From Sulfitobacter sp. DFL-14 (GTDB taxonomy: Bacteria > Pseudomonadota > Alphaproteobacteria > Rhodobacterales > Rhodobacteraceae), in assembly GCF_003335585.1 (NCBI RefSeq), contig NZ_QBFD01000015.1:123298-187297 (forward strand): 64,000 nt of DNA, in the 5' to 3' direction. Below are positions 47,322 through 63,913 of this stretch, in pieces. The stretch's first letter is position 1; each line of letters opens with the position of its first letter. A program made the position numbers and the translations under genes. The notes under the pieces were generated by a model. That model did not search any database. It saw nothing but the letters and a program-made list of their open reading frames with translations, and was not told the DNA's origin.

Positions 47322-48494
47322 ATGCGCCAGATTCTTTGTACATTAGCCCTGACACTCCTGGCCCAGCCCGTCCTGGCAGACACGCCCTGCGGCGGTAATT
47401 TCGCAAGCTTCGTCTCCGACCTGAAGACCGAAGCAATTGCAAATGGCATAGAACCCGCGACGGCTGATGCTTTCTTTGACGGCATCCGACAAGACCCGGC
47501 TGTGCTGGCGGCAGACCGAAAACAGGGCATTTTCCAGATCCCGTTCGTGGATTTCGCGCGCCGCCTGATCTCCGAAGATCGCCTGCGCCGGGGCCGGGCC
47601 AACGCCCAGAAATACGATGCAATCTTTGACAGGGTAGAGACCGAATATGGCGTTGACCGTGGCGTCTTGCTGGCCTTTTGGGCCTTCGAGACGGATTACG
47701 GCGCATTCCAGGGAGATTTCAACACGGCCAATGCCCTGGTCACACTGGCACATGATTGCCGCCGTCCCCAATTGTTCCGCCCCCAGGTGCTGGCAGCGGT
47801 GACGCTCTTTGCCCAGGGCGGGTTTGATCCACGGCGGACCACCGGTGCATGGGCCGGGGAAATCGGCATGGTCCAGATGCTGCCCCGCGATATTCTGGAG
47901 AACGGGGTGGACGGTGATGGCGACGGTGTCGTTTCGCTCAAGACATCGGCCCCCGATGCGCTGCTGTCCGGGGCCAGGATGCTGCAAAGCCTCGGCTGGC
48001 GCGCCGGTGAACCCTGGCTTGCCGAAGTTGTCATGCCATCGGATTTCGACTGGTCCCTGACCGGCCTGGAGACGACAAAACCCGTGTCTGAATGGCAATC
48101 GCTTGGGGTACAGCCCCGCAACGGCCCGCTGGCAGAGGGGCTGACAGGATCGGTTCTGCTGCCACAGGGCAAGGATGGACCGGCCTTCCTGGCCTATCCC
48201 AATTTCCGGGTCTATTTCGACTGGAACCAGAGCTTTACCTACGTCATGACCGCCGCCTATTTCGCCACCAGGCTTCAGGGTGCGCAGGTCTTTGACGCAG
48301 GCAGCCCCCGGACCGGGCTGGACGGCACCCAGATGAAGGCCCTGCAAACCAAACTGGAAGCACGCGGTCATGATGTCGGTGGCGTTGACGGCATCCTTGG
48401 CGCGGGCACCCGCGCAGCCGTGCGCGCAGAACAGGTGCGGCTGGGTCTGACAGTCGACGGATGGCCAACGCCCGAATTGCTATCGCAACTTTGA
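47322..48494 (+). CDS. Lytic murein transglycosylase (MltB-like) with peptidoglycan-binding domain
   Basis: 390 residues. A signal peptide ends near residue 19 (LAQPVLA). The SLT_2-type domain covers about 25-320, with the catalytic Glu in AFWAFETDYGAFQG and the later GEIGMVQMLPRDIL, GDGDGVVSLKTSAPDALLSGARML. A C-terminal peptidoglycan-binding_1 domain (LKALQTKLEARGHDVGGVDGILGAGTRAAV-like) follows. Periplasmic; cleaves the glycan strand. Nine bases after cobD. Confidence 0.93.
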   Translation: MRQILCTLALTLLAQPVLADTPCGGNFASFVSDLKTEAIANGIEPATADAFFDGIRQDPAVLAADRKQGIFQIPFVDFARRLISEDRLRRGRANAQKYDAIFDRVETEYGVDRGVLLAFWAFETDYGAFQGDFNTANALVTLAHDCRRPQLFRPQVLAAVTLFAQGGFDPRRTTGAWAGEIGMVQMLPRDILENGVDGDGDGVVSLKTSAPDALLSGARMLQSLGWRAGEPWLAEVVMPSDFDWSLTGLETTKPVSEWQSLGVQPRNGPLAEGLTGSVLLPQGKDGPAFLAYPNFRVYFDWNQSFTYVMTAAYFATRLQGAQVFDAGSPRTGLDGTQMKALQTKLEARGHDVGGVDGILGAGTRAAVRAEQVRLGLTVDGWPTPELLSQL

Positions 48495-48510: not shown

Positions 48511-48906
48511 ATGCCTCTGAAGAAAACATCCGCCCAGATGGTTGCCGATGCCCGCGCAAAGATCGAGGAGATTGACAGCGAGGCGGCAATTGCCTTGTTG
48601 AAAGACCCCGATGTCCAGTTCGTCGATCTGCGCGACCCGCGCGAACGCGATCGCAGCGGTTTCATCCCCGGCGCATTTCATTGCCCGCGTGGCATGCTGG
48701 AATTCTGGGTCGATCCCGAAAGCCCCTATTTCAAGGATGTCTTTGCCCAGGACAAGAAGTTCGTCTTCCATTGCGCCTCCGGCTGGCGTTCCGCCATTTC
48801 GGTCGCCACCCTGCAGGAGATGGGCTTTGAGGCAGCCCACCTGCGGGACGGTTTCAGCGGCTGGGAAAAGGCCGGTGGCCCGGTGGAAAAGAAGGGCGAT
48901 CGCTAA
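48511..48906 (+). CDS. Rhodanese-domain sulfurtransferase
   Basis: 131 residues, single rhodanese domain. VQFVDLRDPRERDRSGFIPGAFHCPRGMLEF and the active-site loop HCASGWRSA with Cys88. Cytoplasmic, no signal. Donor and acceptor of sulfur are unknown. Start ATG 48511 with AGGAG before it. Probably cotranscribed with the transglycosylase gene (17-base gap). The sRNA promoter starts 45 bases after its stop. Confidence 0.9.
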   Translation: MPLKKTSAQMVADARAKIEEIDSEAAIALLKDPDVQFVDLRDPRERDRSGFIPGAFHCPRGMLEFWVDPESPYFKDVFAQDKKFVFHCASGWRSAISVATLQEMGFEAAHLRDGFSGWEKAGGPVEKKGDR

Positions 48907-48950
48907 TCAGTTTCCTGGCCGAAACGGGTATCGCCAGACAAGGCGCATAT

Positions 48951-48979
48951 TTGCATTTTGTTTAGCTTTGACTTATATT
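48951..48979 (+). promoter_or_regulatory. Sigma-70 promoter of candidate sRNA
   Basis: TTGCAT (48951-48956), a 17-base spacer and TATATT (48974-48979). It is among the best-matching promoters seen in the window and drives toward two hairpins and a terminator, with no open frame of note. Confidence 0.6.
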
Positions 48980-48985
48980 CTGAAG

Positions 48986-49067
48986 ATCGAAACGAAGTTG
49001 TAGTCCAGCTTCTTCACCTGAACTACAGACCCCGCAGAGCGTCTACTCTGCGGGGTCACTCTTTTTC
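48986..49067 (+). ncRNA. Candidate small RNA with two hairpins
   Basis: From the predicted start near 48986 to the T-run the transcript would be about 82 bases. Hairpin 1: TGTAGTCCAG (48999-49008) / CTGAACTACA (49018-49027), one mismatch, with the loop CTTCTTCAC. Hairpin 2 follows without gap. The 5' end is unpaired, and the pyrimidine-rich loop could pair with ribosome sites. No family name is recalled. Expression is not shown by sequence alone. Confidence 0.6.
49028..49067 (+). terminator. Rho-independent terminator
   Basis: Perfect 12-base stem GACCCCGCAGAG / CTCTGCGGGGTC, 6-base loop, then ACTCTTTTT. It ends the candidate sRNA and any read-through from the rhodanese gene. Confidence 0.9.
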
Positions 49068-49073
49068 AGGGTA

Positions 49074-49169
49074 TCAAACCCCGAGCCAGAGTCGGATGAT
49101 CGCGACGATCAGTGTTGCCACACCAATCAGGACCATCCATTTTCGAAACGATTGCTCTTCCAGCCTCAT
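49074..49169 (-). CDS. 31-residue single-helix membrane protein
   Basis: Small open frame starting MRLEEQSFRKWM, then a hydrophobic helix (VLIGVATLIVAIIRLWLGV). The ATG at 49169 is preceded by GAAGGAGGTG, a near-perfect ribosome site, which is the main support. The charged N-terminus should face the cytoplasm. Function unknown; comparable small proteins often accompany oxidases or transporters. It is convergent with the sRNA terminator and 70 bases from the next minus-strand gene. Confidence 0.6.
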   Translation of the reverse strand: MRLEEQSFRKWMVLIGVATLIVAIIRLWLGV

Positions 49170-49239
49170 CACCTCCTTCCACCGCGATGGGTCGCGGCCG
49201 GGGCATGGTGCGGACAGAATGTTCAGGAACGGTTAACCA

Positions 49240-49593
49240 TCATCGGCGCACCGGAAAGCGGTCGCCCTTCTGCGTCAGCAAGACGACGCCGCCGTCGCGC
49301 CATGCAAAGCGGTCACAACGATTGCGCCCGTTGTGGAAGGCCACGCAGACGGTGCCATCGGCGCCGATATCATAGACACCATAGGCCGTTGCCCCGCCCG
49401 CATAGGAATAGCTGTAGGCGCCGCCAACAAAATAGCGGGACTGGCCGTCGTCATGATAGGTCAGTGTCTGCCCGTCGATCAGCGCATGGACTTCGGCAGC
49501 GGCCAGAACGGTATCCCCCGCCAGGACGGCATAGGGATCGGCAGTTGCAGGTGCCGCGGCCAGCAGCAAAGGGATCAGGAAACGCATGAACAT
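49240..49593 (-). CDS. Secreted hypothetical protein
   Basis: 117 residues with a signal peptide (MRFLIPLLLAAAPATA, cleavage near ADPYAV), then a Tyr/Gly-rich beta region (YHDDGQSRYFVGGAYSYSYAGGATAYGVYDIGADGTVCVAFHNGRNRCDRFAW). Two cysteines may pair. I do not recognise the family; the general pattern is that of small periplasmic proteins in this order. Start at 49593 or at 49587. Confidence 0.6.
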   Translation of the reverse strand: MFMRFLIPLLLAAAPATADPYAVLAGDTVLAAAEVHALIDGQTLTYHDDGQSRYFVGGAYSYSYAGGATAYGVYDIGADGTVCVAFHNGRNRCDRFAWRDGGVVLLTQKGDRFPVRR

Positions 49594-49682: not shown

Positions 49683-52600
49683 TCAGGCCACCAGCGTTTC
49701 AGCCTTTTTCAGATCCACGGAGACCAGCTGACTGACCCCCTGTTCAGCCATGGTGACACCGAACAGCCGGTCCATGCGCGCCATGGTGACCGCATGGTGG
49801 GTAATGATCAGAAAACGCGTGTCTGTCTGGCGGCACATCTCGTCCAGCAGGTCGCAAAAGCGCGTGACGTTGGCATCGTCCAACGGTGCATCGACTTCGT
49901 CCAGCACGCAGATCGGCGCCGGATTTGCCAGGAACACGGCAAAGATCAACGCCATCGCCGTCAGCGTCTGCTCACCCCCGCTGAGCAGGCTGAGCGTGCT
50001 CAGCTTCTTGCCCGGCGGCTGGCACATGATCTCAAGCCCGGCCTCAAGCGGGTCATCGGATTCGACCATCACCAGGTTGGCCTCCCCCCCGCCGAACAGA
50101 TGCCGGAACAGCATGGAGAAGTTGGAATTCACCTGCTCGAAGGCCGTCAGCAGACGCTCCCGGCCTTCCCGGTTCAGGCTGGCAATGCCCGAACGCAGGG
50201 TCTTGATTGCCTCTTCGAGGTCGTTCTTCTCCGCAATCAGTGAATCATGCTCTTCCTGAACGTCCTTTGCGTCTTCCTCGGCGCGCAGGTTCACCGCCCC
50301 CAGCGCGTCACGCTGGCGTTTCAGCCGGTTCACGTCAGCTTCCAGCGCATCGGCACCGGGCATCTGGTCCGGGTTGGTGTCCAGACGTGTCAGCAATTGG
50401 TTCGGGGTCAGCTGGCTGTCCTCGGCAATCCGCTCCGCCGCTGCGGTCACGCTTTCGCGGGCCGCCTCGGCGCGTGCTTCCGACCCAGCGCGGGCCTCGC
50501 GCGCTTCGGAGGCCTCCCGCTCCGCTTCCCGCTCTGCCACAGCCGCCTCGCGCAGCGCACTTTCCGCCTTTGACAGCGCATCGGCCGCCGTACCGCGCCG
50601 CGCTTCGGCCCTGGCGATCTCGGTGCTCAACTCTTCGCGCTTGGCGGCCAATTCGGCCGGTGCCGCGCTGGCGTCCTTCAATTCACCTTCGGAGGCCGTC
50701 TTGCGCTCCACCAGTTCCGCAGTCCGCTTTTCAGCCGTCTCAAGGCGGTGTTTCCAGCCGCTCAGCTCCTTGACGACCTCTTGCGACCGCTTCAACCGGG
50801 CCTCGCCCTCGCGGCGCAATTCGTCATGTGCGGACCGGCGTGACATCATGGTGATGCGCGCTGCCTCAACGGTCATGCGGATGTCGTCCACAGCTGCGCG
50901 GGCCTGCGCGAGATCGCCCAGTTCCGCCAGGGCACGCTCGGCTTCCAACACCCGGCCACGGGCGGCCATCGCCTCATCCTCGTGGCGCTTAACGGCCAGC
51001 CCAAGGCTTTCGAGCCGCCCTTCGGCAAGGTTGCGATCCGCCTCCGACCGGCTCAGCGCGCGTCCGGCGTCCGCAACCATGCGGTCCGCCTGCCTGCGGG
51101 CTTCACGCGCCCGCTTATCTGCCTCGGTCTGTTCCACCATGAGACGGGTCAGAGTCTCATGCGCAGCCCGGGCGCCCTCGGCGCGCTGGCTGGCCTGCTC
51201 CAGCGATTGTTTCAAAACCTCCAGGCGGTTCAACTGCTGCAACCGAAGCGCCGCAGCAGATGGCGCATCTTCGGCCCAGGCGCGGTACCCGTCCCAGCGC
51301 CACAAATCCCCCTCCAGGGAAACCAGCCGCTGCCCCGGCAGCAGTGCCGCCTGCAGTGCCGGGCCTTCATCCGGATCCACCAGACCAATCTGCCCCATTC
51401 GCCGGGCCAGCACATCCGGCACCGACACATGCTGCGTCAGGGGCGTGACCCCTGCGGGCAGGGGTTGATCCGTGTCATAGGCAGGCAGGATCGCCCAACC
51501 CGACGGGCCGTCGCTGTCAACCTCCGGCGCACGCAGATCGTCGGCAAGCGACGCACCCAAGGCCTTTTCAAAGCCATGTTCGACCTGCAAACGGTCGAGG
51601 ATCTGGCCGCCTTCCGCAGTGTCACGCTCCAACAGCTTTGCCAGGGCGCCGGTTTCGGCCCTGAGCGCGTTCATCTCGCCCTCAGCCTCGGAGCGTTCGG
51701 CCCGCGCGTCAGCCTCGCGGCCCTGCGTTTCGGCGCGTGCTTCCTCGGCTTGGTGCAAGGCCTCATCCGCCGATGCCGCTGCTGCCACCGCCTCTGTCTC
51801 GGCAGCTTTGGCCGCATCGAAATCCTCTGCCGCCTTGGCCAGCGCGGCACGGCTTTGGGTGACCGCTTCCTGTGCCTTCAGCGCCTCGGCTTCCGACTTT
51901 GCCTGCGTCTTGCGGCTGTCCTCAAGCAAGCGCTCGGCCGATCCGTGCCGCGCGGCCAGACGGGCCACGTCTTCGGTCAGTTGCGACAGATCGCCCTCGC
52001 GCGCCTGCAGAACCGTCGCGGCCTCGCGTGCCGCTTCTGACGCGCGTTCCAGCGCGGTCTCGTGCCCTTCGCTTGCTTTGGCCAGCTCGCGCTGCTCCCA
52101 TTCCAGCCGCTCAATGGTTTCGCCCGCGTCACGGTTCAACCCGCCTTCGCGTTCAATGTCGCGCGTCAGTTGCGCGATCCGGTTCGTCAAGGTCTCGATC
52201 GCGGTCTGCGCCCGGGCCTCCTGATCCGCAAGGGTATCGCGCTGGACGACCAGACGTTGCAGAACGGCCGCTGCAATGGCTTCTTCCTCGCGCAGGGGCG
52301 GCAGGGCTTCTTCCGCCGTGCTGCGTGCCTTGATCGCCTGCTGGACAATGCTCTGGGCCTGTGCTGCTGCCGTCACACGCGCCCGCAGGTCATCTTCCGC
52401 CTTCGCGCGGGCATCATCCGCCTCGCGCCAGCGCCGATACAGCAGCATCCCCTCGGTCCTGCGCAGCTGATCGCCGATCTCGCGATAGCGCGCCGCCTGG
52501 CGGGCCTGCCGCGCAAGCTGCGCCAGCTGGGTGGCCAGTTGTTCGATCACGTCGTCGACCCGCGCCAGGTTCGTCTCGGCGCCGTTCAGTTTCAGCTCCG

Positions 52601-53138
52601 CCTCGTGACGCCGCTGGTACAGACCGGAAATGCCGGCCGCTTCCTCAAGGATCCGGCGGCGGTTCTTGGGCTTGGCGTTGATCAACTCGCTGATCTGGCC
52701 CTGCCGCACCAGCGCAGGGCTGTGCGCCCCTGTCGAGGCATCGGCAAACAGCATCTGCACATCGCGCGCGCGCACGTCCTTGCCCGCCGCCTTATAGGCG
52801 CTGCCCACATCGCGCGTGATCCGGCGGACAATCTCAAGCGCGTCGTGATCGTTGAACCCCGCCGGGGCCAGACGTTCCGAATTGTCGATATGCAGGGCCA
52901 CTTCGGCGAAGTTGCGGGCAGGCCGGGTTGCGGCACCCGCGAAGATCACGTCTTCCATGCCACCGCCGCGCATCGCTGTAGGGCGGTTTTCACCCATCAC
53001 CCAGCGCAGCGCTTCCAGCAGGTTCGATTTGCCACAACCATTCGGACCCACCACCCCGGTCAGACCATCGGCGATGATCAGATCCGTTGGATCGACAAAG
53101 CTCTTGAAGCCCGTCAGCCTGAGTTTGGAAAAGCGCAC
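49683..53138 (-). CDS. smc: Chromosome segregation protein SMC
   Basis: 1151 residues. Condensin ATPase. Walker A GPNGCGKS at 31-38, two long coiled coils rich in Ala/Glu/Arg (about 170-480 and 660-980) around a hinge near 500-640, the ABC signature LLSGGEQTLTAM and Walker B ICVLDEVDAPLDD in the C-terminal head. The start is GTG 53138, since no ATG precedes MRFSKLRLTGFKSF. Upstream lies a DnaA box and a TTGACA promoter. No scpA/scpB seen nearby. Confidence 0.96.
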   Translation of the reverse strand: MRFSKLRLTGFKSFVDPTDLIIADGLTGVVGPNGCGKSNLLEALRWVMGENRPTAMRGGGMEDVIFAGAATRPARNFAEVALHIDNSERLAPAGFNDHDALEIVRRITRDVGSAYKAAGKDVRARDVQMLFADASTGAHSPALVRQGQISELINAKPKNRRRILEEAAGISGLYQRRHEAELKLNGAETNLARVDDVIEQLATQLAQLARQARQAARYREIGDQLRRTEGMLLYRRWREADDARAKAEDDLRARVTAAAQAQSIVQQAIKARSTAEEALPPLREEEAIAAAVLQRLVVQRDTLADQEARAQTAIETLTNRIAQLTRDIEREGGLNRDAGETIERLEWEQRELAKASEGHETALERASEAAREAATVLQAREGDLSQLTEDVARLAARHGSAERLLEDSRKTQAKSEAEALKAQEAVTQSRAALAKAAEDFDAAKAAETEAVAAAASADEALHQAEEARAETQGREADARAERSEAEGEMNALRAETGALAKLLERDTAEGGQILDRLQVEHGFEKALGASLADDLRAPEVDSDGPSGWAILPAYDTDQPLPAGVTPLTQHVSVPDVLARRMGQIGLVDPDEGPALQAALLPGQRLVSLEGDLWRWDGYRAWAEDAPSAAALRLQQLNRLEVLKQSLEQASQRAEGARAAHETLTRLMVEQTEADKRAREARRQADRMVADAGRALSRSEADRNLAEGRLESLGLAVKRHEDEAMAARGRVLEAERALAELGDLAQARAAVDDIRMTVEAARITMMSRRSAHDELRREGEARLKRSQEVVKELSGWKHRLETAEKRTAELVERKTASEGELKDASAAPAELAAKREELSTEIARAEARRGTAADALSKAESALREAAVAEREAEREASEAREARAGSEARAEAARESVTAAAERIAEDSQLTPNQLLTRLDTNPDQMPGADALEADVNRLKRQRDALGAVNLRAEEDAKDVQEEHDSLIAEKNDLEEAIKTLRSGIASLNREGRERLLTAFEQVNSNFSMLFRHLFGGGEANLVMVESDDPLEAGLEIMCQPPGKKLSTLSLLSGGEQTLTAMALIFAVFLANPAPICVLDEVDAPLDDANVTRFCDLLDEMCRQTDTRFLIITHHAVTMARMDRLFGVTMAEQGVSQLVSVDLKKAETLVA

Positions 53139-63718: not shown

Positions 63719-63913
63719 AACGCCCGCCATGCTTGACTCCGCCCCGTCCAGCGCCTAAAGCGCTCGCAATCCCCGGAAGCATCGCCTTCCGGTCCCTGCC
63801 CTGTGCGGGGATCGCCCTCCACCAGCGTGTTACGCCCGTGGGGGCATTTGTGTATTCACTGCGGCCTCCCTACATCTGGGGTATTCCGCAACCGACGATA
63901 AGGGGCTTTGCCC
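63719..63913. other. Intergenic upstream of ffh
   Basis: 195 bases. Two short hairpins: AGCGC/GCGCT at 63750-63764 and CCGGAAG-CATCGC-CTTCCGG at 63773-63792. No T-runs. The SRP RNA signature was looked for and not found. No gene seen. Confidence 0.4.

Follow-up and report, generated by a model that had tools for sequence, protein, structure and literature searches.

According to the available parts of two accounts (PMC7472228, PMC8309996), the par system of pAD1 has convergent promoters, a bidirectional terminator and direct repeats, DRa and DRb, over the start of the toxin Fst. The regulation of Ldr is described as distinct from that of Fst in the available part of one of them (PMC7472228). 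StsR, a small RNA of Rhodobacter sphaeroides and thus from the same bacterial order as the strain considered here, acts on the sRNA UpsM and on the dcw leader under RpoHI/RpoHII, as stated in the accessible part of its description (PMC8307010).

The locus at positions 48951-49198 of the window (the whole 64-kb stretch of Sulfitobacter sp. DFL-14 DNA that was analysed; Table 1) is likely a type I toxin-antitoxin locus, borne on the chromosome and arranged as in par/Fst. We also lean towards regarding it as a member of a new chromosomal type I family, so far found only in the Rhodobacteraceae, which would combine the par plan with an unrelated peptide, mostly occupy the junction of smc and a lytic transglycosylase gene, have a fast-diverging RNA-mRNA interface, sometimes lose its peptide and often possibly start it at CTG. 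As far as par of pAD1 (RNA I/Fst and RNA II) is described in the available parts of the two accounts, the likeness lies in convergent transcripts with one shared terminator, in two direct repeats that give complementarity over the toxin initiation region, in a helix formed by the leader of the toxin mRNA and in a non-ATG start, GUG in the case of Fst (PMC7472228, PMC8309996). With Ldr/Rdl of enterobacteria, of the Fst/Ldr superfamily, the locus would share a short membrane peptide within a type I toxin-antitoxin arrangement. Unlike par/Fst, it belongs to a Gram-negative chromosome and mostly to one conserved site, and whereas a par-type leader stem-loop sequesters the Shine-Dalgarno (SD) sequence, the conserved leader hairpin found here ends before it.

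In the reading that we prefer, the plus strand would give a short antisense RNA (approximately 48986-49067) and the minus strand an mRNA for a likely membrane-bound peptide of about 29 residues. Both transcripts would run towards each other, share one hairpin, and pair at the initiation region as well as through their complementary terminator hairpins, so that ribosome binding would be blocked; if the level of the RNA fell, the peptide would be made and would act on the inner membrane. The hallmark of type I systems, an RNA that is antisense to the mRNA of the toxin, is present in the predicted transcripts, and this complementarity to the start region of the likely toxin means that the RNA can probably shut the toxin off.

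Table 1. Features of the candidate toxin-antitoxin locus and its neighbours, in positions of the window.
Feature	Positions	Strand	Details
Lytic transglycosylase gene	47322-48494		Pfam SLT_2
Rhodanese-like gene	48511-48906		Pfam PF00581; precedes the small RNA
Putative antitoxin-RNA promoter	48951-48979	+	-35 TTGCAT (or TTTGCA one base earlier), -10 TATATT, spacer 17-18
Predicted antitoxin small RNA, ~82 nt	48986-49067	+	From promoter and terminator positions; 5' end placed by the -10 box
RNA interface	48987-49019	+	TCGAAACGA 48987-48995, TCCAGC 49004-49009, TCACCT 49014-49019
Hairpin 1	stem 48999-49008 / 49018-49027	+	Loop and arms bear part of the interface
Terminator hairpin common to both transcripts, 12 bp	49028-49057	both	Plus-side T-tail ACTCTTTTTC 49058-49067
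Toxin-candidate ORF	49074-49163	minus	Start CTG 49163 set by relatives
Repeated initiation region	49143-49174	minus (plus-strand letters given)	TCGAAACGA 49143-49151, TCCAGC 49159-49164, TCACCT 49169-49174
Shine-Dalgarno sequence AAGGAGGTGA	49169-49178	minus	
Leader hairpin GCCGCGA-CCCA-TCGCGGT	49181-49198	minus	Directly before the SD of the candidate toxin mRNA
117-aa frame	49240-49593	minus	Between the peptide gene and smc; no Pfam match
SMC gene	49683-53138	minus	Assigned by Pfam

The case is made by comparative data, without reliance on a single sequence. Among the loci compared (L numbers; G numbers denote genomes), L087 was left out of several tests as a near copy of L088, and L140 where noted below since it has no start at the aligned position. 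L143, L144 and L092, with broken or partial frames, entered none of the tests. L125-L129, L131-L137, L139, L141 and L145 are repeats of places already sampled in the family search, and the weak matches L111-L113 and L115-L122, most of them within long frames, were set aside. L013, L018, L019 and L007 duplicate the peptides of L089, L090, L091 and L087, and each of these peptides was counted once. For L105, which has lost its stop, the first 90 nt were used, and the peptide alignment took the read-through past the lost stop.

The segment 48987-49019 of the RNA is an imperfect repeat of the region of the facing ORF that holds its SD, its start and codons 2-7. Because the RNA repeats this initiation region, the two transcripts would be complementary at the ribosome site, and could pair there through two blocks, one at the SD and start and one in the region of codons 5-7. 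In the printed loci, a second imperfect copy of the SD, start and first codons of that same locus lies past the hairpin, as read on the toxin strand, clearly in most and weakly in a few. When the RNAs and mRNAs of 26 loci (without L087) were re-paired 100,000 times, the cognate alignment sum was 359.5, against 196.1 ± 11.4 and a maximum of 256.0 for the re-paired sets. With one locus per genus (23 loci) the corresponding values were 322.5 against 178.1 ± 11.3 (maximum 237.5), and with 22 loci 310.5 against 173.5 ± 11.1 (maximum 227.5), again over 100,000 re-pairings each. The cognate score was unsurpassed by any other RNA at 15 of the 26 loci, and by any other mRNA at 17. Duplex energies at 25 loci (without L087 and L140) gave -1153.3 for the cognate pairs, against -804.9 ± 25.7 with a minimum of -942.2 after re-pairing, and the own partner formed the most stable duplex for 18 of the 25 mRNAs and likewise for 18 of the 25 RNAs. 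Par-type direct repeats that could pair over the SD and start are weak in three loci: L109 is a clear exception, its own partner ranking 20th for the mRNA and 21st for the RNA out of 25, and L097 (9th and 3rd) and L102 (5th and 3rd) are weak. In 300 shuffles per locus the observed score was never equalled at 17 of 22 loci; it was equalled 50 times for L109, 12 for L091, 9 for L097, 4 for L100 and 3 for L098. For 30-nt segments of the toxin strand placed at the start codon (26 loci), the cognate score was 12.37 against 6.92 for non-cognate pairs, compared with 5.73 against 5.44 at an offset of -30 and 5.42 against 5.53 at +30; the cognate match is confined to the initiation region.

The facing minus-strand frame of approximately 29-31 codons has its stop at 49074, 16 bases from the terminator hairpin, and is coding. 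In all 325 pairs compared (without L140) pN was below pS, with means of 0.308 and 0.617, an excess of pS that both shifted frames lacked on average; entropy by codon position was 0.93, 0.57 and 1.31 (25 loci, without L087 and L140). By reading, the peptides of 27 loci have 28-34 residues and one hydrophobic stretch, with the consensus MxExxYRKWMVxIAAATLxVAIIRLWxG. The window peptide is probably a one-helix membrane peptide of about 29 residues with a charged N-terminus, shorter than usual annotation can handle. The aligned start codon at the 27 loci is CTG in 17, GTG in 5, TTG in 3 and CTT in 1, with no start codon (GGG) in the remaining one. This aligned CTG lies about 8 bases past the SD, which we take to be unusually strong, judged by the end of 16S rRNA, whereas in-frame GTG or ATG codons, where found, abut the SD; in the window these are ATG 49169, which would give the peptide MRLEEQSFRKWMVLIGVATLIVAIIRLWLGV, and GTG 49172. 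The printed frames of L089, L090, L098, L100 and L142 contain no earlier in-frame ATG, GTG or TTG, which fixes the start position in these five. Initiation of the peptide at CTG is possible and may be frequent, and the real start in the window is either CTG 49163 or ATG 49169.

Upstream of the SD, the leader hairpin is conserved with compensatory changes. Its positions were paired in 95.0% of 199 cells at 25 loci (without L087 and L140), and both sides had changed in 6 of the 8 pairs, a number reached by 1 of 500 shuffles. Covariation was 0.385 against 0.237 ± 0.022 in shuffles (0/500), and further pair types numbered 13 against 10.0 (11/500). The leaders of the loci were inspected by eye for a toxin promoter, and they gave no consistent alignment of a -35/-10 pair.

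Carriers are few in the family. A profile built from five peptides matched 5 of the 62 genus members strongly, the own genome included, and gave two further weak matches, of which G022 is a broken copy and G011 lies inside a 414-aa frame; in the family, 18 of the 345 genomes had a match at E < 1e-4, again with the own genome. With the enlarged profile, 25 of the 394 family genomes sampled had a match (E <= 0.001), a count that includes the own genome and a few damaged copies, among them the broken G808 (L143) and the partial G799 (L144). Among 385 genomes sampled across the class, of which a few are family members, no convincing copy lay outside the family: the matches were the own genome and two short ones in long frames. 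Homologues of smc and/or the lytic transglycosylase gene lie within approximately 1.5 kb at 23 of 25 loci (without L140 and L145): the transglycosylase at 21, smc alone at L094 and L095, and neither at L096 and L109. By eye, L096 and L109 have similar sequence adjoining the RNA, which resembles the final part of an enoyl-ACP reductase gene, and in L099 a relative of the 117-aa frame at 49240-49593 lies on the opposite flank of the locus. The genomes with strong matches have one match each, mostly at one conserved chromosomal site, and a tblastn search of plasmids and phages with the window peptide found no match. This pattern and these neighbours would also suit a non-toxic peptide, in which case the same RNA-mRNA switch would control a small regulatory membrane protein, acting for example on the cell envelope or on division. 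The pairing evidence is silent on toxicity, and true type I toxin-antitoxin status hangs on the toxicity of the peptide; we give the regulatory peptide a small chance, for reasons that lie in how the locus is lost and how it diverges.

The peptide region was present in four of 34 named loci (L007, L013 from S. mediterraneus DSM 12244, L019, and L018, the last by reading of SD and peptide); in each, the stretch that follows the rhodanese gene holds this hairpin and a short frame like that of the window. Between promoter and hairpin, the RNA sequence of L007 closely resembles that of the window, and those of L013, L018 and L019 differ greatly from it. In 9 of the 34 the gap from rhodanese to smc measures 20-69 bases, in 7 the examined stretch had no smc match, and in L045 a leader-like hairpin and SD alone remain. 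Of the named relatives found, Sulfitobacter sp. EhC04 is the closest, its rhodanese being 96% identical. Frames, starts or stops are altered in L143, L140 and L105, and in L143 the RNA-side repeat also appears decayed by eye; such damaged copies were noted individually rather than counted systematically, and a search based on the peptide is blind to RNA-first or total peptide loss. Compared with three congeners, the window peptide is 56-59% identical and the C-terminus of Smc 95-96%. Peptide identity did not follow that of Smc (Mantel r -0.01, 5128/9999) and had an r of 0.17 (586/9999) with that of the transglycosylase (MltB), both without L140. Since peptide and Smc identities are unlinked, it is place alone that suggests vertical descent, at a conserved site with fast-changing content. 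Absence of the locus beside the same neighbours in some genomes, the broken peptide frame of G022 (L004), in which the RNA side is still readable, and the fast divergence of the peptide relative to Smc all speak against a regulatory peptide: such features are commoner in toxin-antitoxin loci, and toxicity is not proven by them.

The first-pass annotation had described the RNA as a candidate small RNA with its own promoter and a pyrimidine-rich loop of the type that pairs with ribosome sites; it had mentioned the convergent ORF, and the direct repeats that RNA and ORF have in common had gone unremarked. That the RNA has a promoter and a terminator to itself is backed by the comparison, and letters resembling an anti-SD could contact other ribosome sites, as would be needed for a trans-acting sRNA that acted independently on other mRNAs and whose likeness to the facing ORF was secondary. 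We consider such an sRNA very improbable, given that the interface co-varies with the start region of the facing ORF across loci: the repeats differ in sequence from locus to locus, yet each RNA agrees with its own partner. In the window, the RNA minus its terminator would form a duplex of -43.9 kcal/mol with the facing start region, which none of the other 12,769 51-nt segments of the 64-kb stretch reached (best -38.2 kcal/mol). As the facing ORF is the best-supported target, the RNA is better seen as an antisense partner that shares the hairpin of its target than as an independent sRNA, and the loop as a part of the interface, fitting the SD and start of that ORF through the two complementary blocks. 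Two frames in the program-made list, 48611-49003 and 48958-49236, run across the RNA, and we saw no reason to regard them as genes. A DNA-level explanation, in which a transcription factor bound the repeated sites and the convergent genes were separated by an ordinary terminator active in both directions, would account for the direct repeats and the strong hairpin as DNA features, and can practically be dismissed given that the repeats agree within each locus while varying between loci, and track SD, start and codons in a frame under coding selection.

All elements of the RNA that had been read from the letters were recovered where expected: between the rhodanese gene and the minus-strand ORF come TTGCAT (48951-48956), a 17-base spacer and TATATT (48974-48979), then the 10 positions of hairpin 1 with a C/A mismatch and the loop CTTCTTCAC, and then the perfect 12-bp terminator hairpin followed by its T-run. 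By count, promoter and terminator are unremarkable, since the 64-kb window has one promoter-like site against 0.4 ± 0.7 expected by chance and one terminator-like site against 1.3 ± 1.1. Across loci, the promoter region of the RNA contains a -35-like TTTAC or TTTGC in 20 of 26 cases, where shuffles would lead one to expect 4.1. Scored by the plain sigma-70 consensus, the antitoxin promoter is slightly above shuffles (7.9 against 7.2, with 7 of 26 loci within the top 10% of shuffles); an earlier score of 8.5 against 6.5 is favourably biased because its -35 word was picked after viewing the loci. This word count and both scores are without L087. By eye, a TTAGGA/TAAGGA-like word stands between the -35 and -10 in L095, L103, L106, L108 and L109, perhaps a regulator site. 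The hairpin between ORF and RNA, shared by the convergent genes as in par, is found at all 27 loci, with 10-12 bp and 0-2 mismatches. At least 5 T occur among the first 10 bases of its antitoxin side at 22 of 27 loci; on the toxin side TTTT is present at 14 and absent at 13, including the window, where the minus-side tail is T-poor. The fold of 48980-49075 has a z of -4.70, equalled by none of 200 shuffles, which we judge to be mostly due to the terminator stem. Conservation of hairpin 1 in relatives, named earlier as a check, was seen in some, such as L090, L103, L108, L130 and L142, and the set as a whole (without L087) was slightly better than shuffled, with a mean z of -0.81 and z < -1 at 11 of 26 loci; in the window an alternative pairing is favoured over it in folds of 48980-49075 and of 42 nt, and another fold favours hairpin 1. 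As a fixed structure hairpin 1 is weakly supported.

Membership of the Fst/Ldr superfamily is ruled out as far as tested. None of 27 peptides has the P/D/S/TxxxG motif of Fst/Ldr from residue 9 on, and unlike Fst with its charged C-terminal tail they have 0-2 charged residues in the last five, their charge and conserved W being N-terminal. Neither Pfam model, PF13955 for Fst or PF13940 for Ldr, matched any of 22 peptides. In the Sulfitobacter sp. DFL-14 genome the Ldr model found nothing, with an E. coli control above the cut-off; the Fst model found nothing either, a weak negative because its Lactococcus lactis control was detected below the cut-off. Matches of the peptide to Pfam and NCBIfam families were weak and scattered, with the three cut-offs examined far above the scores, and a known peptide family was rejected on these grounds. 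So was a known RNA family, since Rfam gave no gathering-score match at 48951-49067 (best E 0.43, 17.9 bits against a cut-off of 80). StsR is set apart by its description, as the pairing here is with the facing ORF. The literature searched, whose coverage is without most subscription papers, yielded nothing on type I toxin-antitoxin systems in the Rhodobacteraceae; in the one Paracoccus paper with the term, it stood in the reference list only, as far as the available text goes.

The Rhodobacteraceae are a main marine bacterial group. The occurrence of the par/Fst plan with an unrelated peptide in a Gram-negative chromosome points to a plan that either had more than one origin or has outlasted its toxin, and some two dozen natural cognate pairs are a ready test set for the evolution of antisense specificity. 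Elsewhere in the window, at 63801-63852 on the plus strand, lies its sole gathering-score Rfam match, the ffh sRNA RF01793 (63.1 bits against a cut-off of 35).
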